From NCBI GenBank assembly GCA_020629835.1, contig JAHDCO010000009.1, forward strand, positions 1-64,000: a DNA stretch of 64,000 nucleotides, read 5' to 3'. The notes beneath the pieces are model-generated. The model ran no database searches and was not told the DNA's origin. It was given only the letters and a program-made list of their open reading frames with translations. The DNA is from Granulosicoccaceae bacterium (lineage in GTDB: Bacteria; Pseudomonadota; Gammaproteobacteria; Granulosicoccales; Granulosicoccaceae). How positions within the stretch are numbered: position 1 is the first letter of the stretch; the number at the start of each line of letters is the position of its first letter. Made by a program: the position numbers and the translations under genes. Positions 43,927 through 57,676 of the stretch are shown here, piece after piece.

Positions 43927-45087
43927 ATGTTTACTAACAATCTCAGCCACAACGAGATTCGCGAAGCGGTTAGAAAACTTTGCGCACAATTTTCACCGAC
44001 GTATTGGCGCAAGGTTGATAAAGAACGGGCGTACCCGACTGAATTTGTACAAGCCCTGACTGACGCCGGATGGCTAGCTGCGTTGATTCCTGAAGCTTAC
44101 GGAGGGTCGGGGTTGCCGTTATCTGCAGGGGCCGCGATATTGGAAGAGATTCATCGTTCAGGCGGTAACGCGGGTGCCTGCCATGCTCAGATGTACACCA
44201 TGGGCACTTTACTGCGGCACGGTTCCGACCAGCAGAAGCAGCAGTATTTACCTTCGATTGCTGATGGATCGTCAAGGCTACAAGCCTTTGGGGTCACCGA
44301 ACCAAGCTCGGGAACGGATACCGGCGCGCTAAAAACCACGGCAAAACTGGACGGCGACGAATATGTCATTAACGGTCAAAAAATTTGGACCAGTCGAGCA
44401 GAGTATTCAGATTTGATGATTTTGCTGGCTCGTACAACCCCTTTAAGCGACGGCATCAAGAAAACTGAGGGTTTGTCTGTATTCATTGTGGACATGCAAC
44501 AGGCCTTAGCGAATGGCTTAAGCATTCGTCCCATTCGTACCATGATGAATCATTCAACGACTGAAGTCTTCTTTGATGATGTGCGTGTTCCCAAAGAAAA
44601 TTTAATTGGCGAGGCAGGTAAGGGCTTTAAGTACATACTGTCTGGTATGAATGCTGAGCGAATTTTAATCGCAGCAGAATGTATTGGGGATGCGAAGTGG
44701 TTGATCGAACGGTCGGTGAACTACGCAAACGACCGAGAAGTGTTTGGACGGGCAATTGGAAAAAACCAAGGCGTTCAATTCCCGTTAGCTAAAGCGTACG
44801 CTAACATGCGTGCCGCGGAGTTGATGGTCAATGAGGCAATCAGGCTTTTTGAGGCGAACGAAAATCCTGGCGCGGAAGCCAATATGGCTAAGCTGTTAGC
44901 CGCGGACGCGTCCAACGAAGCAGCTAACGCGGCTGTTCAAACGCACGGTGGTTTTGGATTTGCTGAAGAGTACGATGTTGAACGTAAGTTTCGAGAAACC
45001 AGGCTGTATCAGGTCGCGCCCATTTCGACGAATCTGATTCTGAGTTACTTGTCTGAGCATGTGTTGGGTTTGCCAAGGTCCTACTGA
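43927..45087 (+). CDS. acyl-CoA dehydrogenase
   Basis: Flavoenzyme oxidising an acyl-CoA to the 2-enoyl-CoA. Family blocks are LQAFGVTEPSSGTDTGALKT (FAD/substrate region near 120), VINGQKIWTSRAEYSDLMIL, FFDDVRVPKENLIGEAGKGF, the AERILIAAECIG helix, and the C-terminal QTHGGFGFAEEYDVERKFRE. The usual catalytic Glu position in this class falls in the last region (EEYDVER). At 386 residues it is a normal length. Chain-length preference cannot be read. It is convergent with the alpha/beta hydrolase gene. Confidence 0.9.
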   Translation: MFTNNLSHNEIREAVRKLCAQFSPTYWRKVDKERAYPTEFVQALTDAGWLAALIPEAYGGSGLPLSAGAAILEEIHRSGGNAGACHAQMYTMGTLLRHGSDQQKQQYLPSIADGSSRLQAFGVTEPSSGTDTGALKTTAKLDGDEYVINGQKIWTSRAEYSDLMILLARTTPLSDGIKKTEGLSVFIVDMQQALANGLSIRPIRTMMNHSTTEVFFDDVRVPKENLIGEAGKGFKYILSGMNAERILIAAECIGDAKWLIERSVNYANDREVFGRAIGKNQGVQFPLAKAYANMRAAELMVNEAIRLFEANENPGAEANMAKLLAADASNEAANAAVQTHGGFGFAEEYDVERKFRETRLYQVAPISTNLILSYLSEHVLGLPRSY

Positions 45088-47185: not shown

Positions 47186-47929
47186 TCACTGTGCGGCACT
47201 GAGTAATTTACTTAGTTCAGCGGTTAATATCGTACGATCAAAACCTCGATAGGCTTGCCCACCATCGGTCTTTACTTCAAGCCCAGCGATAGCGTGATAG
47301 GGCAACATGTGTGCTGCGTACTTACCAGTATCTTTGAGTGAAAATACAATTGGCACGAAAGGAAACGCGTCAGCGTCAAAGCCAGTTTCCAGTGCGGCTT
47401 CCGCCCCGTTGGGTGCCAGGTAGGATTCGATGTGTACTACGATAAAGTTCTTGGCGACAAACTCGTTTAATGCCTTAGCTTCCGCGTTTGCATTGACGTT
47501 TTCAGTTTCCTTCATAGCCCACTGTTTGTCGTTACCGTCGTGGTACTGCCACTCATAGGTAAATTCTCTACTGTGGCCTTTTACGTACTTATCAAATACG
47601 TGGCACCACAGGCAGTACTCCGCACCGTACACCACCAATACGGTTTTTCCCGTCTTTCGTCCCTGATCTATCGCACGATTTAGTAGGGTAGATTGGTCGG
47701 AGCATTCGTCGTAAAGTTTGGCAATGCCGTCCCGGCAATTACTGTCGATACGTTCTGGGTAGCTCTGTACTTCAAAGTAAATTGACGGGTTACCGGCTAC
47801 CGCACTGCCCATCATAAAAAACAGTGAAATGCAGCAGAGCCAACTTGATAAACGCGCAACTAAACGTACGAATGAACGTACAAATAAACGCACAACTAGG
47901 CGCACAGATAAACCAACAGATAAACGCAT
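47186..47929 (-). CDS. exported thioredoxin-fold protein
   Basis: 247 residues. A CxxC motif (GAEYCLWCHVF, near residue 105) follows the strand KTVLVVYGA, typical of the thioredoxin fold; a following His is seen in DsbD/YyaL-like proteins. The signal region is odd: the first 29 residues are an R-L-x-V tandem repeat coming before the hydrophobic core SSWLCCISLFFMMGSAVAG. AGGA six bases before the ATG at 47929 supports that start in spite of the odd N-terminus. It lies 32 bases downstream of the enamidase gene, on the same strand. Function unknown; redox or maturation role possible. Confidence 0.75.
   Translation of the reverse strand: MRLSVGLSVRLVVRLFVRSFVRLVARLSSWLCCISLFFMMGSAVAGNPSIYFEVQSYPERIDSNCRDGIAKLYDECSDQSTLLNRAIDQGRKTGKTVLVVYGAEYCLWCHVFDKYVKGHSREFTYEWQYHDGNDKQWAMKETENVNANAEAKALNEFVAKNFIVVHIESYLAPNGAEAALETGFDADAFPFVPIVFSLKDTGKYAAHMLPYHAIAGLEVKTDGGQAYRGFDRTILTAELSKLLSAAQ
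47843..47926 (-). repeat. seven 12-bp tandem repeats encoding the signal-peptide n-region
   Basis: On the minus strand, seven degenerate 12-base units (type CGTTTATTTGTA) follow the ATG of the thioredoxin-fold gene and give RLSV-GLSV-RLVV-RLFV-RSFV-RLVA-RLSS. The repeat lies wholly in the positively charged n-region. Copy changes would keep the reading frame. Confidence 0.85.
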
Positions 47930-47961: not shown

Positions 47962-49134
47962 TCAAATGATGCTGGGTAATCTGCCGGCGGGCGGTGTGTT
48001 TCGGCTTCGATGCGAACGCACTTCGCCATCGATAATGGTCATTCCGATGCCCGGTAGGTTGCCTTGTTGAATACTTTCAAGCATGTCTTTACCTGGCGAA
48101 TGTTGCGCCTGATCCAGCAGGATAACGTCTGCTGCCATGCCCACTTCCAGAATTCCAGTATTTAGTTCGCGCATACGCGCGGTGTTGCCTGTGGCAAAGC
48201 AAAACGCGATTTCCGCCGGTACATTGCCTAAGCTCGATAACATGGCGATCATGCGTAAAATTCCCAGCGGCTGCACACCAGAACCTGCCGGTGAGTCCGT
48301 GCCGAGGATCACGCGTTCAGATTCTTCCAATTCAAACGCGGTTCGCATGGCCAGTAAGCCGGCGCGTTCGTTGCCATTGTGAACAATTTCAATGCCACGC
48401 TTACAACCTTCACACAAGCACATGATTTGATCATCGGGCAGTGCGGTATGACCTCCGTTAATGTGGCCAATGATATCTGCATCGGCTTCGAGCACCACGT
48501 CTTTATCAATCAGGCCCGAGCCGGGTATGGAAGGGCCGCCGGTATGAATGGTGGACTGCATGCCGTACTTACGCGCCCACTTAACCATTTGTGCCGCGGT
48601 TTCGCCTGCCTTCACCGAGCCTAAGCCCACTTCACCTAACAACTTCACCCCGGCTTCAGCCAGTTCTTTGAAATCGTTTTCTTCCATGCCTTCTTCCAAC
48701 ACCGGTGCACCGGCAAGCATCTTTACACCGCTAGGGCGAAAGTTTTCATACCAACGCTGCGAAGCGATCGCCATGGCTTTCAGTCCAACAATGTCTTTGG
48801 GTCTGCCGGGCAAGTGCACTTCGCCCGCAGAAATCATGGTGGTAACCCCACCGTGCAAACAGGAATCTATCCAATGTATTTGTTGCTGGCGAGGCGTGTA
48901 GTCGCCGATAACCGGGTGTACATGACTGTCAATTAACCCGGGTGCTACCCACACATCATTTGCGTCCACAACGGTGGTTGCGTTATCAGTGTCCAGGTTG
49001 GCGAAATCTCCAATGTCGGTAATGACACCATCGATTGCGATGATGCAGTTGCCGTCGATTAACGGTGATTCAAGTTTGCCCGATAACATTCGGCCAATAT
49101 TTTTTATCACCAGTTTTTTTTGTGTATCGCTCAT
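47962..49134 (-). CDS. enamidase-like metal-dependent amidohydrolase
   Basis: Amidohydrolase-superfamily protein whose whole length resembles enamidase of Eubacterium barkeri nicotinate fermentation. That enzyme hydrolyses 1,4,5,6-tetrahydro-6-oxonicotinate to ammonia and 2-formylglutarate. Metal-site elements are APGLIDSHVHPVIGDYTPRQ (His71, His73), LLGEVGLGSVKAGE (Glu), MQSTIHTGG (His), IGHINGGHTA (His) and ILGTDSPAGSG (Asp). Shared specific blocks are GGVTTMISAGEVHLPGRPKD and the C-terminal RSRNTPPAGR. ATG 49134 is preferred over 49146. It is transcribed away from the hydroxylase genes, downstream of the MarR gene. Confidence 0.88.
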   Translation of the reverse strand: MSDTQKKLVIKNIGRMLSGKLESPLIDGNCIIAIDGVITDIGDFANLDTDNATTVVDANDVWVAPGLIDSHVHPVIGDYTPRQQQIHWIDSCLHGGVTTMISAGEVHLPGRPKDIVGLKAMAIASQRWYENFRPSGVKMLAGAPVLEEGMEENDFKELAEAGVKLLGEVGLGSVKAGETAAQMVKWARKYGMQSTIHTGGPSIPGSGLIDKDVVLEADADIIGHINGGHTALPDDQIMCLCEGCKRGIEIVHNGNERAGLLAMRTAFELEESERVILGTDSPAGSGVQPLGILRMIAMLSSLGNVPAEIAFCFATGNTARMRELNTGILEVGMAADVILLDQAQHSPGKDMLESIQQGNLPGIGMTIIDGEVRSHRSRNTPPAGRLPSII

Positions 49135-49151
49135 AGGGAGTTCCATTGAGG

Positions 49152-49187
49152 TTCGTGGGCAGAGGTAACTTCGTGGGCACAGGTAAC
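49152..49187. repeat. two 18-bp tandem direct repeats before the enamidase gene
   Basis: TTCGTGGGCAGAGGTAAC and TTCGTGGGCACAGGTAAC lie head to tail (17 of 18 identical), 17 bases from the start of the enamidase gene. They could be a regulator site or a recent duplication that alters leader length. Confidence 0.7.
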
Positions 49188-49195
49188 TATGTCGT

Positions 49196-49222
49196 AAAAG
49201 CGGGGTCGTCGTAAACGCTTTT
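49196..49222 (-). terminator. weak hairpin between marR and the enamidase gene
   Basis: Stem AAAAGCG/CGCTTTT with a 13-base loop in the 122-base gap after the marR stop. Part of the T-run belongs to the stem, so termination strength is doubtful; partial attenuation is possible. Confidence 0.3.
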
Positions 49223-49256
49223 TAAACAACAGGGTATTCACGGGTGGTCTGGCACG

Positions 49257-49685
49257 TCATTCCTGCAGCTCGTTGACCGTCAACCGGTCTAACAGACTGA
49301 GTAACTGCGCTTGCTCAGACTTGTTCAAAGGTTCCAGAGTTTGTTTTGAAATGTCCGCCCCTGCTTTAACTGCATTGGCAATGATGCTTTGGCCGCGACG
49401 GCTCAACGATATGTTGTGGCGTCGTTTGTCTTTTTCGCACCGGTTAGATACCAACCAACCCCGCTCGATCAATCGATCAACCACGCCTTTGATGGTGGCC
49501 GCATCCATACAGACTGAGCGTCCCAGCTGATTCTGTGACAGCTCGGTCTCTTCGCGCAGCCGCGCCATCACACTGAACTGTGTGGGCGTCACATCGGGCA
49601 GATGCTGATGAAAGATATCGACATGACGCTGCTGTGCCAGCCGCAGTTTGTAGCCAATCTGTTGGTCGAGCTGATACATGATCAC
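49257..49685 (-). CDS. MarR-family transcriptional regulator
   Basis: 142 residues. A winged helix-turn-helix is visible: VTPTQFSVMARLREETELSQ, then LGRSVCMDAATIKGVVDRLIERG (recognition helix) and the wing CEKDKRRHNISLSRRG. The ends form dimer helices. MarR proteins of this type are released from DNA by small aromatic or heterocyclic ligands. It lies between the enamidase gene and the divergent hydroxylase operon, with a candidate operator in the 88-base divergent region, so it is probably the local repressor of the pathway. Confidence 0.9.
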   Translation of the reverse strand: MIMYQLDQQIGYKLRLAQQRHVDIFHQHLPDVTPTQFSVMARLREETELSQNQLGRSVCMDAATIKGVVDRLIERGWLVSNRCEKDKRRHNISLSRRGQSIIANAVKAGADISKQTLEPLNKSEQAQLLSLLDRLTVNELQE

Positions 49686-49706
49686 CTTGAAAGTGGCAAA
49701 AAAAGG

Positions 49707-49735
49707 TTGACCCTGAGCGGGACACCGGTTTCAAT
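49707..49735 (+). promoter_or_regulatory. predicted sigma-70 promoter of the heterocycle operon
   Basis: TTGACC (49707-49712) and TTCAAT (49730-49735) are separated by 17 bases and precede the first DUF1185 gene by 38 bases. The -35 matches consensus at five of six positions, the -10 at four of six. Predicted by eye only. Confidence 0.45.
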
Positions 49736-49737
49736 AA

Positions 49738-49759
49738 GATCATTCGTACACCAACGATC
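49738..49759. promoter_or_regulatory. 22-bp imperfect palindrome, candidate MarR operator
   Basis: Half-sites GATCATTCGTA and the complement GATCGTTGGTG match at 8 of 11 positions and flank the centre of the site. It directly follows the predicted -10 element, a usual position for MarR repressors, and sits between the start of marR and the DUF1185 gene. Confidence 0.4.
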
Positions 49760-49773
49760 GAAGAAACGCAAAT

Positions 49774-50370
49774 ATGACAACAGCCATACCTACCTCGGTG
49801 GACTTGCGAAAACTCAGCGTTTCGGTGGAAGAGGTTTTTCACGAGGGCGGGCCGGTGGCTGCCGTACCGCTGAAGAAGGCAGCCTGTGTGGCTGTTATTC
49901 AGAATCCATTTGCTGGCCAGTATGTGGAATCCATCGAAGGATTTATGGACACACTGAAGCCGTTGGGATTAACCATGGCGCAGCGGCTGATCGACACCTT
50001 GGGTGGGCCTGAACAAGTACAAGGATTCGGTAAGGGGGCGATTGTGGGTGCTCATGGCGAAATCGAACATGGCGCGCTGTGGCATGTGCCAGGTGGTTAT
50101 GCCATGCGCGAACTGCTGGGTGATTCCAAAGCCATCGTGCCGTCGACCAAGAAGGTGGCTGGCCCTGGCGCTCAATTGGATATTCCGCTTACGCACATCA
50201 ACGCTTCGTATGTGCGCAGTCATTTTGATGCGGTAACTGTCGGACTTAACGATGCGCCCCGGGCTAATGAACTGTTACTGGCTTTGGTTATGAGTACGGG
50301 AGCTCGCGTTCACGAACGTGTCGGTGGCTTGAAAGCAGACGACATCTTAGGGGTGGACGGCCTGCGCTGA
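49774..50370 (+). CDS. DUF1185 (amino acid synthesis family) protein, first paralogue
   Basis: 198 residues of PF06684, whose known structure is a variant of the Bacillus chorismate mutase fold; the reaction is not established. Conserved blocks are VAVIQNPFAGQYVESIEGF, the GKGAIVGAHGEIEHGAL region, PSTKKVAGPG, INASYVRSHFDAVTVGLNDA and PRANELL. A second paralogue lies two genes downstream; the two share all these motifs. As first gene of the MarR-controlled operon it probably acts on a pathway intermediate, but the activity is not known. Confidence 0.9.
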   Translation: MTTAIPTSVDLRKLSVSVEEVFHEGGPVAAVPLKKAACVAVIQNPFAGQYVESIEGFMDTLKPLGLTMAQRLIDTLGGPEQVQGFGKGAIVGAHGEIEHGALWHVPGGYAMRELLGDSKAIVPSTKKVAGPGAQLDIPLTHINASYVRSHFDAVTVGLNDAPRANELLLALVMSTGARVHERVGGLKADDILGVDGLR

Positions 50371-50378
50371 CGCAATCG

Positions 50379-51290
50379 ATGAACACTTCTCTGCACACAG
50401 GTTTCGATCAGTTTGACAGCCGGAGTAAACACTCCAGCGTGTCATGGAACCCGGTGTGGCGAACGCTCAACTCGCGTCGACTGCACTTGCATTACGGGCC
50501 CATCGATCTACTGATCGATGTATCAGGCACTGAAGACAACATTCACCAAGCTCATGAAGCGGCCAGGCAGTGTTTTGCTGGTGTTCTGGAAGCGTTGGTT
50601 GCTGAATTACCGCTACTTCGCACGCCGTGTACAAGCGGAAGCCTGCGCCCAAAAGGAGTTGTAGCGCAACGAATGTGGAAGGCCTGTCAGCCGCATACCA
50701 ATCGCTTTGTTACCCCCATGGCAGCGGTTGCCGGTGCGGTTGCTGATCATGTCTTATCGGGCATCGTGCAACGGGTACCTTCGGTACCTCGCGTGTGGGT
50801 CAACAACGGAGGTGATATCGCGTTCCACCTGGCGCCGGGTGAATCTACATCATTGGGTGTATCCCGAGCCAACGCGAAACGTGCGGCAACACTGAATCTG
50901 TCTTCAAGCGATGACGTGCGCGGTGTTGCGACCAGTGGGTGGGCCGGACGAAGTTTTAGTTTAGGGATTGCAGATGCAGTGACGGTTCTAGCAGCTACGG
51001 CAGCCGATGCGGACGTGGCGGCTACGTTAATTGCTAACGATGTTTGTTTACAAGATCCGCGCTTAGATAAACAGTTTGTCGTTCGCAAAAAAGCGCAGGA
51101 CATCGCCTGCGATTCAGATTTAAACGATCAATGGGTGGTTACTGATGTGCACTCACTGCCCAGTGAACTGTGTGAACGTGCAGTTTCGAACGCACAAGTA
51201 ACGGCCGAAGCGCTAATTAGGCGTGCGCCGATTACTGCGGTTTTCATTGAATGTCAGGGCCACAGTGTGGCTGTAGGAGCACGTGTATGA
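50379..51290 (+). CDS. UPF0280 family protein (ApbE-like fold)
   Basis: 303 residues. Blocks RVWVNNGGDIAFHLAPGES and GVATSGWAGRSFSLGIADAV resemble the flavin-binding core of ApbE FAD:protein FMN transferases, to which UPF0280 is distantly related. The neighbouring 6-hydroxynicotinate-reductase-like protein belongs to a family whose characterised member has a covalently bound flavin, so a flavin transferase role is attractive; it is inference. No signal peptide, hence cytoplasmic. The gene begins eight bases after the first DUF1185 gene, and its stop overlaps the next start. Confidence 0.85.
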   Translation: MNTSLHTGFDQFDSRSKHSSVSWNPVWRTLNSRRLHLHYGPIDLLIDVSGTEDNIHQAHEAARQCFAGVLEALVAELPLLRTPCTSGSLRPKGVVAQRMWKACQPHTNRFVTPMAAVAGAVADHVLSGIVQRVPSVPRVWVNNGGDIAFHLAPGESTSLGVSRANAKRAATLNLSSSDDVRGVATSGWAGRSFSLGIADAVTVLAATAADADVAATLIANDVCLQDPRLDKQFVVRKKAQDIACDSDLNDQWVVTDVHSLPSELCERAVSNAQVTAEALIRRAPITAVFIECQGHSVAVGARV

Positions 51291-51874
51291 CTCAAGCAAA
51301 AATTCGGAAAATTGCGGTTTTTTTAGATGAAACACACCAGGAGATGGGGAAGCCAATTTCCCCACCTACACGTCGTGCTGCTGCGGTAGCGGTTATCGAA
51401 AACCCCTACGCCGGTGTGTATTCCGAAGACTTAGAAAAACTGATGGTGATTGGGGAAGAGTTGGGTGACCTACTGGGACGACGAGCCGTGGACGCGTTAG
51501 GGATTGAGCCAGCCGCTGCAGAGAGTTATGGCAAGTCGGCCATGGTGGGTGAAAACGGTGAACTAGAGCATGCCGCAGCCATACTGCATCCGAGGTTAGG
51601 TAAACCCTTAAGGGCAGCCGTCGAAAAGGGCGCAGCCCTGGTTGCTTCGAGTAAAAAAATGGGCTCGATGGGGCAGGTACTGGACGTGCCACTCGGTCAC
51701 AAAGATGCCGCGTATGTGCGTTCCCATTTTGATGGTATGGAAGTGTCCATAAACGATGCGCCGCGCGCTAACGAAATTTTGGTTGCGGTGGCTGTAACCG
51801 ACTCAGGGAGACCTTTACCGCGGGTGGGTGGGTTAACGCACGACGAGGCTGAAGGCAAGGATGGGCTACGGTGA
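51287..51874 (+). CDS. DUF1185 (amino acid synthesis family) protein, second paralogue
   Basis: 195 residues starting at ATG 51287, overlapping the UPF0280 stop (ATGA). It has the same motifs as the first paralogue: VAVIENPYAGVYSEDLEKL, GKSAMVGENGELEHAAAI, KDAAYVRSHFDGMEVSINDA and PRANEILVA. The region between these blocks has diverged, so the pair is an old duplication and not a recent one. Two copies in one operon suggests a heteromer or two successive substrates. Confidence 0.9.
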   Translation: MTQAKIRKIAVFLDETHQEMGKPISPPTRRAAAVAVIENPYAGVYSEDLEKLMVIGEELGDLLGRRAVDALGIEPAAAESYGKSAMVGENGELEHAAAILHPRLGKPLRAAVEKGAALVASSKKMGSMGQVLDVPLGHKDAAYVRSHFDGMEVSINDAPRANEILVAVAVTDSGRPLPRVGGLTHDEAEGKDGLR

Positions 51875-52716
51875 GTTTGCAACGCGCCCTAGCACTTTTA
51901 TCGGAGTCAGCGTTTCCTGTTGTGGCCGGTGGTACGGATTTTTACCCAAGCCTTCAAGATAAAGCGCCCCCGTTGGATGTCATCGACATCACGAAATTTG
52001 ATGAGCTGAAACAGATTGAACGATTCGACGACCACTGGCGCATCGGCGCCGGCGTCACCTGGAGCCAGCTGGTAAAGGCAGAGCTACCGCAAGCCTTTAG
52101 TGCGCTAAAAGCCGGTGCGTTAGAAGTCGGATCGATACAGATACAAAACCGCGCAACTTTGGTTGGCAATGTTTGCAACGCATCACCCGCAGCGGATGGT
52201 ATGCCGGCGTTGTTAGCGTTGGATGCACAAGTTGAATGCCAGAGCTCACGCGGTACACGTGTTGTACCGTTGTCGGCTTTTGTCTCTGGTGTGCGCAGTA
52301 CCGACAAACAAGCGGATGAGATCGTTACGGCATTATTGGTTCCTAAGTTTTCTCACACCGAGTGCAGTGGATTTAAGAAACTGGGTGCGCGACGTTATCT
52401 GGTGATATCCGCTGCAATGGTTGCCGTTAACATTGATTGTGATGAGCAGGGTGATATTCAACGTTGCGCGATAGCCGTTGGCTCATGTTCACCGGTCGCC
52501 GCCCGATTAAGCGATCTGGAAAACGCGATTCTTGGTGCGAATATAGCGGACACGCAAGGCTTGTTAAATGCCGTGTCACTTCATCACTACCGTGAGCTTT
52601 CACCCATAGACGATGTTCGAGGTTCAAAGGCGTATCGATTTTCGGTAGTCAAAGCATTGATTGGTAGAACACTTATTGACGTGTGTAGTCAATTCACGCC
52701 ACGACGGAATGCTTAG
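51871..52716 (+). CDS. xanthine dehydrogenase-family FAD subunit
   Basis: 281-residue FAD-binding protein of the CoxM/XdhB type. The FAD-binding motif FPVVAGGTDFYPSLQD is near residue 20, and the second conserved block is IQIQNRATLVGNVCNASPAADG near residue 95. The C-terminal CO-dehydrogenase flavoprotein domain follows. The start is GTG 51871, overlapping the DUF1185 stop (GTGA). It passes electrons from the fused Fe-S/molybdenum subunit next door to an acceptor such as NAD or a quinone. Confidence 0.92.
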   Translation: MSLQRALALLSESAFPVVAGGTDFYPSLQDKAPPLDVIDITKFDELKQIERFDDHWRIGAGVTWSQLVKAELPQAFSALKAGALEVGSIQIQNRATLVGNVCNASPAADGMPALLALDAQVECQSSRGTRVVPLSAFVSGVRSTDKQADEIVTALLVPKFSHTECSGFKKLGARRYLVISAAMVAVNIDCDEQGDIQRCAIAVGSCSPVAARLSDLENAILGANIADTQGLLNAVSLHHYRELSPIDDVRGSKAYRFSVVKALIGRTLIDVCSQFTPRRNA

Positions 52717-52718
52717 TT

Positions 52719-55427
52719 ATGAGCATTGACTTTCGCATTAATGGGCAAGCGGTTGAGGTTTCAGTACCGTCTACGACCCGGTTGAGTGACGTACTTAGAG
52801 ATCATCTTGAGTGTCGAGATGTAAAAGTTGGCTGTAATGCGGGCGACTGTGGTCTGTGTTCTGTCTTGGTTGATGGTGATGTGGCTTGCGCGTGCCTGGT
52901 CCCCGTGGGTCAGGTGGCGGGGTGTGATGTGGAGACGGTTGCCGGTTTAATTCAATCAGAACCGGTGACGCAACGACTGGCCGACGCCTTTTTGACCCAT
53001 GGCGCTGCTCAATGCGGTGTTTGTACGCCGGGGTTATTGGTATCGGCCACACCGCTTCTGCGCGAGGATTCGCAGCCGTCAGAGCAAGCAGCAAAAGACG
53101 CGTTGGGTGGCGTGTTGTGTCGCTGTACGGGCTATCGAAAAATTCTCAGCGCGGTATGCCAGTCTCAATGCGCTGAAACGCCTGGCACTGAAACGCCTGA
53201 GAACTCGGCGATGAATTCTGCAAACGTATACGTAAACGCAGACGCCATCGTGGGTCAGTCTCCGCTTCGAGTCGATGGCCGAAACAAGGTCTTTGGCACT
53301 GAGAAGTTTGGTGATGATGTGGCACCAGCTGATGCGCTGGTGCTAAAAGTAATACGTTCACCCACACACCGAACGCGTTTTACTTTTGGTGATATCGACG
53401 GTTATCTACAGCGTCACCCGGGTATTCATCGCGTGTTTAGTGCGAAGGATGTACCCGGCTCCAACGCCTTCGGCGTGATTCCTCCGTTTATCGATCAGCC
53501 GGTTTTTGCCGAATCGCACACAAGGTTTAAAGGCGAAGCGGTTGCGGCGGTCGTGGGTGATGCCTCGGTTATGGCGCGTTTTAACGCTGATGATTTTCCG
53601 ATTGAATTTGAAGAACTGCCGTGTGTATTGACCGCACGGGACGCCCTCGCCAGCACCGCGCCCCAATTGCACGCGTCATCCGAGCACAACACAATGTGTG
53701 AAGGTTTTGTGAAACGCGGCGACGCGAAAGCTGCGTTGGAAACCTCGGCCTTTACCGCGGACGTTGCGATTGAAACGGGCTTTGTTGAACATGCCTATCT
53801 AGAGCCTGAGGCTGGCTATGCCATACGCACGGGCGACCGTATTGAAATGTTTGGGTGTACGCAAGCGCCTTATATGAATCGTGACAGCATTGCTGACGTG
53901 TTAGGCATCGGTACGGATCAAGTGCGTATGTCTCCCAGTGCTACCGGGGGTGGGTTCGGTTCCAAGCTTGATCTATCGTGGCAACCGTTGGTAGCGGTTG
54001 CTGCGTGGCATTTAAACCGTGCGGTGCGCGTTACGTTCACTCGGCGCGAGTCCATGCAATCGACAACAAAGCGACATCCCGCATCCATTAACGCACGCTT
54101 TGGGTGCGATGCATCGGGCACGTTAACCGGGGCTACGTTTGAAGGTTACTTTAATACCGGTGCCTATGCGTCTTGGGGGCCGACCGTCGCCAATCGCGTG
54201 CCGATACACGCATCCGGGCCTTACGCTGTGCCGCACTACACAGCCCGCGCAAAAGGGATTTACACCCACTGTTCTCCGAGCGGTGCCTTTAGAGGGTTTG
54301 GTGTGCCACAGGCGGCTATCGCACAGGAAAGTGCGTTTGATGAGTTGGCGACGAAAGTCGGTATGGATCGATTGGAGTTTAGGCTGCATAACGCGCTAAC
54401 AAACGGTCGTGCAACCGTGACGGGACAGGTGTTCGATACGGCTGTGGGCATTACCGAGTGTTTTGAAGCGCTTAGGTCTCGTTGGCAGGAGGCTAAGCAA
54501 CGAGTCAACGATAAAAACAAGCAGACGATCAAAGCAAATTCTGCCTTGCGTTACGGTGTTGGCATTGCCGGTGGTTGGTATGGCTGTGGCAACACGTCGT
54601 TACCGAACCCATCCACTATCAAAGCAGGCATAAGGGCGGATAGAACCGTGTACCTGCACCAGGGTGCGGTGGACATCGGGCAGGGTTCTAATACCGTTAT
54701 CACGCAAATTTTTTGCGATGCTTTCGGTATCGGCATCGATGAGGTAACGTTGATTGGAAGCGATACCGACAAAACACCCGATGCGGGTAAAACGTCTGCA
54801 TCAAGGCAAACGTTTGTGTCCGGCAATGCGGCCCGCTTAGCGGGGTTAGCATTGCGAGAACAGGTAACACGGCTGGATAACACACCGGATTGGTCGGGTT
54901 TACCCGTGGATAAAGAAGGGTATGTGGTGTGTGTGAGTGAAACCTACGATCCGCCAACCGAACCACTGGATGAAAATGGACAAGGCGTGCCGTACGCTGT
55001 TTATGGCTATGCGGCGCAAATGGTGGAGCTGTCCGTTGATATTGAACTGGGGCAAGTGGAACTCATTAATTTAGTGGCAGCCCATGACGTGGGTAAGGCC
55101 ATTAACCCGCTGTTGATTGAAGGACAAATACACGGTGGGGCTGCCCAGGGTATTGGTCTTGCGTTAATGGAATCGTTTATCCCAGGTCGAACGGAAAACT
55201 TGCACGATTATTTAATTCCGACGATCGGCGACATTCCACCCATTGAATCGATCTTGGTGGAAGTTGCCGATCCTCACGGGCCTTTCGGTGCCAAGGGTCT
55301 GGGCGAGCATGTGTTGATACCCACCGCGCCTGCCATTTTAAATGCCATTCAACACGCCTGCGGTGCAAGGGTTCGAAACTTACCGGCAACGCCGGATGCG
55401 GTGTTGGCCGCTATTCCAGGAGAATAA
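52719..55427 (+). CDS. fused [2Fe-2S]/molybdopterin hydroxylase subunit
   Basis: 902 residues combining the small and large subunits of xanthine-dehydrogenase-family enzymes. Residues 1-155 carry a ferredoxin-type cluster (Cys39, 44, 47 and 57/59) and a second cluster (QCGVCTPG and LCRCTGYRK). From about 185 the molybdopterin domains follow: EHAYLEPEAGYA, SATGGGFGSKLDL, SGAFRGFGVPQAAIAQE, QGAVDIGQGSN and GAKGLGEHVLIPTAP, which carries the catalytic Glu. It would hydroxylate an N-heterocycle next to nitrogen using water. The two subunits are separate in E. barkeri nicotinate dehydrogenase. Confidence 0.93.
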   Translation: MSIDFRINGQAVEVSVPSTTRLSDVLRDHLECRDVKVGCNAGDCGLCSVLVDGDVACACLVPVGQVAGCDVETVAGLIQSEPVTQRLADAFLTHGAAQCGVCTPGLLVSATPLLREDSQPSEQAAKDALGGVLCRCTGYRKILSAVCQSQCAETPGTETPENSAMNSANVYVNADAIVGQSPLRVDGRNKVFGTEKFGDDVAPADALVLKVIRSPTHRTRFTFGDIDGYLQRHPGIHRVFSAKDVPGSNAFGVIPPFIDQPVFAESHTRFKGEAVAAVVGDASVMARFNADDFPIEFEELPCVLTARDALASTAPQLHASSEHNTMCEGFVKRGDAKAALETSAFTADVAIETGFVEHAYLEPEAGYAIRTGDRIEMFGCTQAPYMNRDSIADVLGIGTDQVRMSPSATGGGFGSKLDLSWQPLVAVAAWHLNRAVRVTFTRRESMQSTTKRHPASINARFGCDASGTLTGATFEGYFNTGAYASWGPTVANRVPIHASGPYAVPHYTARAKGIYTHCSPSGAFRGFGVPQAAIAQESAFDELATKVGMDRLEFRLHNALTNGRATVTGQVFDTAVGITECFEALRSRWQEAKQRVNDKNKQTIKANSALRYGVGIAGGWYGCGNTSLPNPSTIKAGIRADRTVYLHQGAVDIGQGSNTVITQIFCDAFGIGIDEVTLIGSDTDKTPDAGKTSASRQTFVSGNAARLAGLALREQVTRLDNTPDWSGLPVDKEGYVVCVSETYDPPTEPLDENGQGVPYAVYGYAAQMVELSVDIELGQVELINLVAAHDVGKAINPLLIEGQIHGGAAQGIGLALMESFIPGRTENLHDYLIPTIGDIPPIESILVEVADPHGPFGAKGLGEHVLIPTAPAILNAIQHACGARVRNLPATPDAVLAAIPGE

Positions 55428-55430
55428 GCG

Positions 55431-56936
55431 ATGGTGCGTCAAACCGTAACGCCAGAGCCTAATGGCAAGATTCGTTGCGATGCGTGTCCAGTGTTGTGTT
55501 ACATCAAAGATGGTCGTACTGGCGCGTGCGATCGATACGCTAACGACGGTGGTGACCTGGTGCGGGTAGATCCTTTCACCGTGCTGCAACACCAGCAACA
55601 ACAAGGGGACGTTGCCGTTGTTGAGTTTCATAAGTCCGGCAGCGATGAACCGGCTTGGGATGGTTCCTGGTTACCCTCGACCAAGCCTTTTGTTACAGCC
55701 ATTGGCGCAGGCACCACTTACCCGGATTACAAGCCAGCGCCATTCATCGTTAGTCAAACCGTTGATGATGTGGATATGGTCACGGTGGTAACCGAAGGCA
55801 TATTCAGTTACTGCGGCGTAAAAGTGAAAATTGATACTGACCGGCACTTAGGCCCGGAACAATCTTTGGTGCGAGTGCAGGGTGAGGCAATCGGTCACGT
55901 CACAACCGGCGAGTACGGCTCGCAAATGCTGTCGCTGGGTGGGGTAAATCACTTAACCGGAGGCTCTAAAAAGGAGGGTCGTATAACCTGCGAGGCGCTG
56001 TTGACTTTGTGCAACCGGGGTGCGGTTGAAATGACGGTTGATGAAGGGGTAACGGTGGTTGTGCAAGCCGGCGAAGCACCCATCGTCGATGGTGTCAAAG
56101 AAGAGGTCATGCGGGTAGGGTGTGGGTCTGCCACCATCGGTATGTTCGCCCGTCAATGGGCGCCCTATGTGGATGAAGTTGTGGTGGTGGATGACCACAT
56201 CACAGGCGTACTCTCAGAGCATCAGGCCGGACGCATGCTGGGTATGGAGCCCAGTGGCATCCGAATTAAAGGCAGGCGTTCCACGCCTGGACGCTATTTC
56301 CAGGTGGCAGAGCCTGGCAGTGGTTGGGGAGGAACTGATATCGACAACCCGCTGTCCTTGATTGATGGGTTCAAACCCAACACCGCTGAACCTGGGCTGC
56401 GATTGTTAATGATTTCAACCACCGGCGAGCAGTACGCGTACTTTGAATTAGATGACAACCTGCAACCGCAATCGGTAGATCTTCCCGGGGCGCTGCGACC
56501 ATCGGTTGACCGCATTGCCGAAAATTGTGAACCTTCCTTGTGCACCGTTTTGTTTATGGGTGGCGCCGGTGGCAGCTTACGCGCAGGGGTCACTGAAAAC
56601 CCCGTGCGTTTAACTCAGTCTGTACAGAAACGATTAACCAACATTACCTGCGGCGGCGCACCGGTGTATCGCTGGCCGGGGGGCGGCATTACCGTGATGG
56701 CCAACGTGCTGGATATGCCGAAACACGCATTTGGTTATGTGCCGACACCGGCGCTGGTTGCACCTATTGAATTTACACTACGCTACAGTGACTTCGAGGC
56801 ATTAGGAGGGTATACCGATGCGGTGGTGCCGTTAGATGTTGTGAAGAGTGAATTCAGCCGATCGGTAACGAACGAAACGGACATTCCCTGGGCGCTAAAC
56901 GCCGATCTGTATCAATGGAGTAAAACGAATCTGTGA
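55431..56936 (+). CDS. 6-hydroxynicotinate reductase-like Fe-S flavoprotein
   Basis: 501 residues matching the family annotated as 6-hydroxynicotinate reductase, which reduces the hydroxylated pyridine ring. An N-terminal cysteine cluster (Cys16, 19, 23 and 33 in RCDACPVLCYIKDGRTGAC) should bind an Fe-S centre; later cysteines (SYCGVK, TCEALLTLC, ENCEPSLC, TCGGAP) may bind others. The E. barkeri enzyme carries a covalent flavin, [2Fe-2S] and [4Fe-4S] clusters. A good GGAG site precedes the ATG, four bases after the hydroxylase gene. Substrate may differ from 6-hydroxynicotinate. Confidence 0.85.
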   Translation: MVRQTVTPEPNGKIRCDACPVLCYIKDGRTGACDRYANDGGDLVRVDPFTVLQHQQQQGDVAVVEFHKSGSDEPAWDGSWLPSTKPFVTAIGAGTTYPDYKPAPFIVSQTVDDVDMVTVVTEGIFSYCGVKVKIDTDRHLGPEQSLVRVQGEAIGHVTTGEYGSQMLSLGGVNHLTGGSKKEGRITCEALLTLCNRGAVEMTVDEGVTVVVQAGEAPIVDGVKEEVMRVGCGSATIGMFARQWAPYVDEVVVVDDHITGVLSEHQAGRMLGMEPSGIRIKGRRSTPGRYFQVAEPGSGWGGTDIDNPLSLIDGFKPNTAEPGLRLLMISTTGEQYAYFELDDNLQPQSVDLPGALRPSVDRIAENCEPSLCTVLFMGGAGGSLRAGVTENPVRLTQSVQKRLTNITCGGAPVYRWPGGGITVMANVLDMPKHAFGYVPTPALVAPIEFTLRYSDFEALGGYTDAVVPLDVVKSEFSRSVTNETDIPWALNADLYQWSKTNL

Positions 56937-57676
56937 ATGAGCATGATACGGCGTTAGTGCGCCAGCAACTTTGCCCCACTGGTACACTGCGGGCGGCCAT
57001 CAACATGACCAACGGGCTGTTGGTGACAGGGCTTGGCGATAGTGGCGAACCGGTGGGGGTATCACCTGACATGGCAGCCGCGATCGCTTCGAAGCTGGAG
57101 GTGCCGGTGCAATTAAAACCGTATCCCGGACCAGGTTTCGTAGCTGATGCTCTGGCAGAGGATGCCTGGGACATTGGCAACATAGCTAACGAGCCAGCTC
57201 GCGCTAAGCTCATATGTTTTTCTCCCTCATACTGCGAAATTCAGGCAACGTATCTCGTTTGGGAAGACGAGCCCCTGAAGACGCCCAAGGATGTGGATGC
57301 ACCGGGCCGACGGATTGCGGCAAAAGCAAGGGCGGCTTATGAGCTGTGGTTGTCGGACAATTTATCGCAGGCAGAACTCGAGACAACCGACAGCTTTGAC
57401 TCATCGGTGGAGTTGTTTGTTTCGCAGCATTTGGATGCGCTGGCGGGCTTACGGCCGGCATTGCTTAAGGAACATAAAAACATACCCGGCACTCGGCTAA
57501 TGGAACAAAGCTTTACCGCTGTGCAGCAAAGCATCGGCTGTCGCCACGGCATTCCAGAGGCCGCGCAATGGTTACAAAATTTCGTGAATGAATCACTTCG
57601 CAACGGGTTTGTAGCGGAGCTCATTGAGCGCCATGGGGTAACCGGGCGGTTGTCGCCTAGCCCGTCACTGAACTAA
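56933..57676 (+). CDS. periplasmic-binding-protein-like protein lacking a signal peptide
   Basis: 247 residues with the solute-binding family 3 fold: GTLRAAINMTNGLLVTGLGD opens the domain, then VSPDMAAAIASKLEVPVQLK and AEDAWDIGNIANEPARAKLI, typical of amino-acid ABC binding proteins. The first 20 residues are polar (MNEHDTALVRQQ) with no hydrophobic core, so it should remain in the cytoplasm. The start is GTG 56933, overlapping the reductase stop. No ABC permease or ATPase follows. It could be a cytosolic ligand or substrate carrier, or a misplaced or degraded binding protein. Confidence 0.8.
   Translation: MNEHDTALVRQQLCPTGTLRAAINMTNGLLVTGLGDSGEPVGVSPDMAAAIASKLEVPVQLKPYPGPGFVADALAEDAWDIGNIANEPARAKLICFSPSYCEIQATYLVWEDEPLKTPKDVDAPGRRIAAKARAAYELWLSDNLSQAELETTDSFDSSVELFVSQHLDALAGLRPALLKEHKNIPGTRLMEQSFTAVQQSIGCRHGIPEAAQWLQNFVNESLRNGFVAELIERHGVTGRLSPSPSLN

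Follow-up and report, generated by a model that had tools for sequence, protein, structure and literature searches.

Reductive degradation of nicotinate has been described in aerobic Azorhizobium, Bradyrhizobium, Rhodopseudomonas, and strain SG-6C, all of which share a gene cluster for the first three steps that also encodes a transporter and two conserved proteins of unknown function; the carbon leaves via glutarate (PMC3511419). Strain SG-6C grows on nicotinate and on 6-hydroxynicotinate, and its reductase homolog is 42% identical to Hnr, the 6-hydroxynicotinate reductase of the fermenting bacterium Eubacterium barkeri (PMC3511419). Here, we describe a nine-gene divergent cluster at positions 47962-57676 of a 64,000-nucleotide stretch (the window) of contig JAHDCO010000009.1 from a marine Granulosicoccaceae bacterium (assembly GCA_020629835.1), and we consider it highly probable that this island encodes an aerobic reductive nicotinate pathway whose carbon exits through genes elsewhere in the genome. 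The kind of pathway is already known in aerobes; what is new is its documented breadth, a variant with a fused hydroxylase, the finding that its first and its ring-opening enzymes are interchangeable, and specific proposals on what UPF0280, DUF1185, and a Rieske cassette may do.

In the pathway that we propose, an enzyme built from a flavin adenine dinucleotide (FAD) subunit and an iron-sulfur/molybdenum (FeS/Mo) subunit would hydroxylate nicotinate at C6 to 6-hydroxynicotinate, the reductase would partially saturate the ring to give 1,4,5,6-tetrahydro-6-oxonicotinate, and the enamidase would hydrolyze the lactam and the enamine, yielding 2-formylglutarate and ammonia. Genes elsewhere in the genome would carry the carbon through glutarate semialdehyde and glutarate to glutaryl-CoA. 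MarR would govern both divergent transcripts, and UPF0280 would act as an obligate partner of the reductase, most likely as a maturation factor. If a substrate has to be named for the two DUF1185 proteins, the likeliest would be the ring-opened aminomethylene- or formyl-dicarboxylate.

Gene content and spread of the module

The enamidase aligns over its full length (residues 10-393) with the crystallized E. barkeri enamidase (2VUN; E 3e-104), is 44.5% identical to the E. barkeri enzyme over 384 residues, and keeps the metal-site motifs HVH, GEVGLG, HTGG, and HINGG, with TDSPAG aligned to NDAPSG at the Asp motif. The reductase shares 61-67% identity with proteins that carry the annotation 6-hydroxynicotinate reductase. 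The hydroxylase is of the xanthine dehydrogenase (XDH) type, and its summed bit score to the three chains of E. barkeri nicotinate dehydrogenase (537, versus 401 for the best single chain) makes that enzyme its nearest solved relative overall. A glutaryl-CoA dehydrogenase is encoded on contig C3 of the window genome (E 1e-194), so the fermentation genes of E. barkeri would not be needed. Their absence had been noted in the preliminary description, and none of them (hydroxymethylglutarate dehydrogenase, B12 mutase, and later steps) was recognized among the open reading frames (ORFs) between 42 and 64 kb, a result that is limited to this region, since the whole genome was not searched for them. 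The acyl-CoA dehydrogenase at 43927-45087 was considered as a glutaryl-CoA dehydrogenase and is unlikely to be one, as its PDB matches are headed by other acyl-CoA dehydrogenases. The features of the island are as follows.

47962-49146, minus strand: enamidase, a lactam/enamine hydrolase predicted to open the ring of tetrahydro-6-oxonicotinate (2VUN match, conserved motifs)
49257-49685, minus strand: MarR-family regulator (PF01047, E 1e-12), present in many relatives
49707-49735, plus strand: predicted sigma-70 promoter (TTGACC, 17 bp, TTCAAT), with TTGACC and a -10-like hexamer at the same spacing in loci L128, L129, L130, and L132
49743-49754, no strand: candidate MarR operator TTCGTACACCAA, an imperfect dyad, with related sites in four relatives
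49774-50370, plus strand: DUF1185a (PF06684), with the canonical His cluster and nearest to BB2672/3BYQ (profile, PDB match, residues)
50379-51290, plus strand: UPF0280/COG2122 protein, a candidate for maturing the reductase, with a fold of the ApbE superfamily (NF003322, AlphaFold2, Foldseek, co-occurrence)
51287-51874, plus strand: DUF1185b (PF06684), ortholog of SPO0826/2QTP with Leu in place of H174 (2QTP, E 3e-97; residues)
51871-52716, plus strand: FAD subunit of the Mo hydroxylase (PF00941, PF03450; 3hrd_C among the top PDB matches)
52719-55427, plus strand: fused 2Fe-2S/molybdopterin subunit, predicted nicotinate 6-hydroxylase (domains, PDB bit sums)
55431-56936, plus strand: 6-hydroxynicotinate reductase homolog with an N-terminal four-Cys cluster site, the rest an unknown fold (alignments, annotated homologs at 61-67%)
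56933-57676, plus strand: SBP_bac_3-like protein (PF00497), without an evident signal peptide and specific to its clade

The ORF list bears out the coordinates of every ORF in the preliminary description; for DUF1185b we set the start at 51287, the listed ORF start at 51251 being too early. Profile searches returned PF06684 twice (each E < 1e-69), XDH-type FAD and molybdenum cofactor domains, MarR, amidohydrolase, and SBP_bac_3, and the plus-strand neighbors are spaced by -4 to +8 bases, which fits a single transcript. The assignment of hydroxylase, reductase-like, and enamidase-like genes around a MarR gene to the opening steps of the E. barkeri pathway is therefore upheld by coordinates, family matches, and the homology to 2VUN, and the placement of two DUF1185 genes and a UPF0280 gene in the same operon by the spacing and by their recurrence in nearly all relatives. 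The binding-protein-like gene that had been counted with them does lie within the plus-strand run, but it is not a part of the module: among the loci checked it occurs only in L128 and L129, which form the small clade of the window itself. Its best PDB matches are reconstructed ancestral cyclohexadienyl dehydratase constructs.

Upstream of DUF1185a, TTGACC-N17-TTCAAT is followed by TTCGTACACCAA. The same TTGACC is found in L128, L129, L130, and L132, with a -10-like hexamer 17 bp on, and four relatives carry a TTCG/TTTG-N4-CGAA-like site just past the -10 element, so that a MarR operator at TTCGTACACCAA is plausible from its sequence and position. Beyond the enamidase end of the island, the thioredoxin-like ORF at 47186-47929 has a repetitive Val/Arg-rich N terminus (RLSVGLSVRLVVRLFVRSFVRLVARL), and its start is perhaps misplaced.

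At least 593 relatives of the reductase were found in GTDB genomes, and 80 loci were kept and fetched, mainly from Alphaproteobacteria, with some from Acidobacteria and Granulosicoccus, the last providing the nearest records that bear a name. A comparison of gene neighborhoods, for which the preliminary description had called, returned the gene set of the window across these 80 loci, a recurrence far beyond chance, with hydroxylases and ring openers interchangeable. The commonest order is FAD subunit, Mo subunit, reductase, UPF0280, DUF1185a, and DUF1185b, and the genes for MarR and the enamidase are close by. In nearly all relatives DUF1185 and UPF0280 are parts of the module, so that they are no local oddity. 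Among 142 sampled relatives of the window genome, the reductase was found in 35, nearly all of the same family.

Hydroxylases and ring openers were counted in the 65 full-length loci, which are long enough to judge. The front enzyme is the hydroxylase seen in the window in 51 of these and a NicB-type hydroxylase in 10, which in rhizobia is paired with the same reductase core; no locus has both. The ring opener is the enamidase in 42 loci and a caprolactamase-like HyuA, as part of a HyuAB pair, in 8, again with none carrying both. The HyuAB proteins score best with caprolactamase CapAB, yet fall under the cut-off of that model. In all eight loci (L050, L051, L066, L067, L071, L095, L113, and L115, from Rhizobiaceae and Pleomorphomonas) HyuAB adjoins DUF1185 and the enamidase is missing, which suggests a nonorthologous replacement of the ring-opening enzyme. 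That one reductase is combined with either of two hydroxylases and either of two lactam openers argues for 6-hydroxynicotinate and its reduced lactam as shared intermediates, and a pathway that starts from a pyridine carboxylate and passes through a lactam should show such mutually exclusive enzymes.

These data also bear on the preference of the preliminary description, which had read the island as an aerobic variant for nicotinate or, more likely, a related N-heterocycle. XDH-type hydroxylases are versatile, and the fused hydroxylase and the SBP-like gene set the island apart from E. barkeri, as might be expected if the island acted on picolinate, a pyrimidine, or a hydroxypyridine. However, the enamidase and the reductase are both homologous to enzymes of the nicotinate pathway, rhizobia combine this core with NicB-type hydroxylases, and a cluster of this kind is published for nicotinate (PMC3511419). 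We therefore retain the aerobic counterpart of the E. barkeri opening, drop the preference for another heterocycle, and regard action on such a compound as very improbable.

Several points weigh against a nicotinate pathway. The best single PDB match of the hydroxylase is an aldehyde oxidoreductase, and sequence cannot reveal the substrate of this enzyme, so that C6 hydroxylation of nicotinate is a prediction. The link between the reductase and E. barkeri Hnr is taken from published work on the SG-6C homolog (PMC3511419). DUF1185a was undetected in 14 of the 65 full loci, and in an Acidisphaera locus (L081, 10001-12000) the fetched flanks hold no UPF0280 gene, the reductase being directly followed by DUF1185b, so that this long locus may depart from the pairing of reductase and UPF0280. 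More generally, the functions assigned to the enzymes of this organism, including the DUF1185 and UPF0280 proteins of the operon, are predictions.

The reductase itself matched no Pfam or NCBIfam model in profile searches. Its AlphaFold2 model has a pLDDT of 74 and drew no PDB match with an E value below 0.25, and its similarity to the C-terminal barrel of glycine-cleavage T-protein is weak (best E 6e-4; rank 25 in the structure search). The N-terminal Cys motif gives weak matches to ORFs of ~360-400 amino acids in unrelated gammaproteobacteria. For a ferredoxin-NADP reductase of the linked type, the window genome returned a weak match alone.

UPF0280 and the DUF1185 pair

The UPF0280 protein scores 312 bits with NF003322 (NCBIfam cut-off, 290). 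It is present in 36 of 36 reductase-positive genomes, the window genome included, and in 4 of the 107 genomes in which no reductase was detected, all four being of the same family with incomplete assemblies (74-86%); because the genomes are related, the Fisher value overstates the significance of this co-occurrence. Its AlphaFold2 model (pLDDT 92.5) is matched by Foldseek to Desulfovibrio DVU1097 (2o34) and then to ApbE/FmnB flavin transferases, with probabilities mostly of 0.95-1.00 but template modeling scores of only ~0.3-0.4. The motifs GGD, ATSG, and ADxxxT, which we take to be equivalent to those of ApbE, are conserved.

This fold, these motifs, and the near-perfect co-occurrence with the reductase raise the possibility that UPF0280 is a flavin mononucleotide transferase that places a flavin covalently on the reductase. 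However, the sole ApbE-like target motif seen in the reductase is GCGSAT, and flavinylation at its Thr235 was rejected, as 13 of 50 proteins have Ala at this position. In addition, the homology of COG2122 to ApbE is distant and seems to fall short of the flavin-binding region, and the family has been tied instead to persulfide chemistry and to the making of homocysteine, for which Desulfovibrio needs COG2122 as well as DUF39 and a protein of ferredoxin type (PMC5764234). We therefore consider the transferase role doubtful. Given the failure of Thr235 and the COG2122 literature, we propose that UPF0280 may be a maturation factor of the reductase, its chemistry left unspecified, and hold this assignment to be evenly poised. 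A search of the window genome and of 299 sampled Pseudomonadota genomes gave no match to DUF39.

DUF1185b is the ortholog of SPO0826 (PDB 2QTP, E 3e-97), and DUF1185a is nearer to BB2672 (3BYQ). In BB2672 numbering, with the register assigned by motif, the interface residues Glu90, Glu92, His93, His98, Arg172, and Arg176 are invariant in all aligned DUF1185 members. DUF1185a and the proteins of tgn type retain His174, whereas 79 of 86 DUF1185b proteins have Leu at that position, and this split marks DUF1185a and DUF1185b as distinct lineages. A third DUF1185 gene was looked for in the window genome and not found.

All six of the more distant plasmid-borne DUF1185 genes that were sampled have an alpha/beta hydrolase, a flavin reductase, a luciferase-like monooxygenase, and an aldehyde dehydrogenase as neighbors, which is the composition of the trigonelline tgn operon. 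On an Ensifer plasmid (L139, 684-13264), such an operon with DUF1185 directly adjoins the nodulation genes nodL, noeA, and noeB. After ring opening, the reductive nicotinate route and the trigonelline route both convert a formyl- or aminomethylene-dicarboxylate to a semialdehyde. From this common chemistry we tentatively propose that the DUF1185 pair might act on the ring-opened compound by tautomerization, hydrolysis, or decarboxylation. TgnF, a DUF1185 homolog, is reported to boost semialdehyde oxidation in the trigonelline pathway (PMC7913881). The label "amino acid synthesis" given to DUF1185 stems partly from adjacent branched-chain-type ATP-binding cassette (ABC) transporter genes, including those beside SPO0826 (PMC2954203); such transporters look like parts of the nicotinate module.

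The Rieske/ABC cassette and trigonelline

In a sister Granulosicoccus locus (L130), the operon also contains a Rieske gene together with four ABC genes, placed between DUF1185b and the FAD gene, and on Sulfitobacter plasmids Rieske and ABC genes are adjacent to the module. The window genome has the same five-gene operon, at 69-78% identity, unlinked on contig C10. This unlinked operon (L118, 5236-15360) adjoins matches to methylthioribose kinase and methylthioribose-1-phosphate isomerase. The Rieske oxygenase is of the VanA/DdmC demethylase type, with the N-demethylase NdmA among its PDB matches, and in the simplest reading it would be a trigonelline N-demethylase. Of 25 genomes that bear the module, 12 gave a strong Rieske match, as against 0 of 20 others, an association inflated by genome relatedness.

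This raises the possibility that the environmental substrate is trigonelline (N-methylnicotinate), imported by the ABC transporter and demethylated by the Rieske protein before the island degrades the nicotinate, which would extend the nicotinate pathway rather than oppose it. The position and retention of the cassette, the type of the oxygenase, and its distribution are consistent with this, and no clear tgn-type monooxygenase was found on searching the window genome. Ruegeria pomeroyi, in which the DUF1185b ortholog is found, grew better with trigonelline as substrate than with homarine, although the authors of that study assumed a TgnAB route (PMC8269262). However, only 5 of 19 sampled locus genomes of other groups have a Rieske match above 50% identity, so most reductase-positive genomes there are without a close ortholog and the cassette is accessory; one locus (L132) carries the transporter genes without the Rieske gene; and other N- or O-methylated pyridines fit equally. 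We found nothing in the literature on Rieske trigonelline demethylases. On balance, we consider trigonelline a genuine possibility that falls short of probable. It is unlikely that a wider scheme would hold in all its parts, with UPF0280/COG2122 as a dedicated maturase of reductive FeS enzymes (the reductase in this case, the DUF39 enzymes for homocysteine in others), DUF1185 producing semialdehydes from the aminomethylene- or formyl-dicarboxylates that arise when the pyridine ring is opened, whether reductively from nicotinate or oxidatively from trigonelline, and a Rieske demethylase feeding trigonelline into the reductive route in marine bacteria.

Comparison with described systems

Although at least 593 relatives of the module are present in GTDB genomes, its helper genes still carry the labels "amino acid synthesis" and "UPF0280." Tying DUF1185, UPF0280, and the Rieske demethylase to the use of nicotinate or trigonelline allows the function of two orphan families to be put to the test. 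It also has a bearing on what becomes of trigonelline, a compound that marine particulate samples have been shown to contain (PMC8269262).

The cluster of Azorhizobium caulinodans and Bradyrhizobiaceae (AZC_2804-2790; SG-6C; PMC3511419) shares with the window a reductase homolog, the first three steps (as predicted for the window), a transporter, conserved unknown proteins, and an aerobic host. It differs in that the ABC/Rieske cassette of the window genome is on another contig, and the Bradyrhizobium and Rhodopseudomonas loci (L070, L087, and L108) have a NicB-type hydroxylase, whereas the window has a FAD subunit and a fused FeS/Mo subunit. The fermentation of E. barkeri likewise utilizes a hydroxylase, a 6-hydroxynicotinate reductase, and an enamidase, but its hydroxylase Mo subunit is split where that of the window is fused, and in the window no fermentation genes are seen nearby and the carbon is predicted to leave via glutaryl-CoA. 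The COG2122/DUF39 systems for homocysteine synthesis in Desulfovibrio and methanogens also employ UPF0280 as an obligate partner of another enzyme, whereas the window genome has no match to DUF39. Finally, the trigonelline operons of tgn type (flavin monooxygenase, flavin reductase, aldehyde dehydrogenase, hydrolase, and DUF1185) resemble the window in having DUF1185 as a partner in the cleavage of a pyridine-carboxylate ring, but they open this ring oxidatively and have neither the reductase nor the enamidase.

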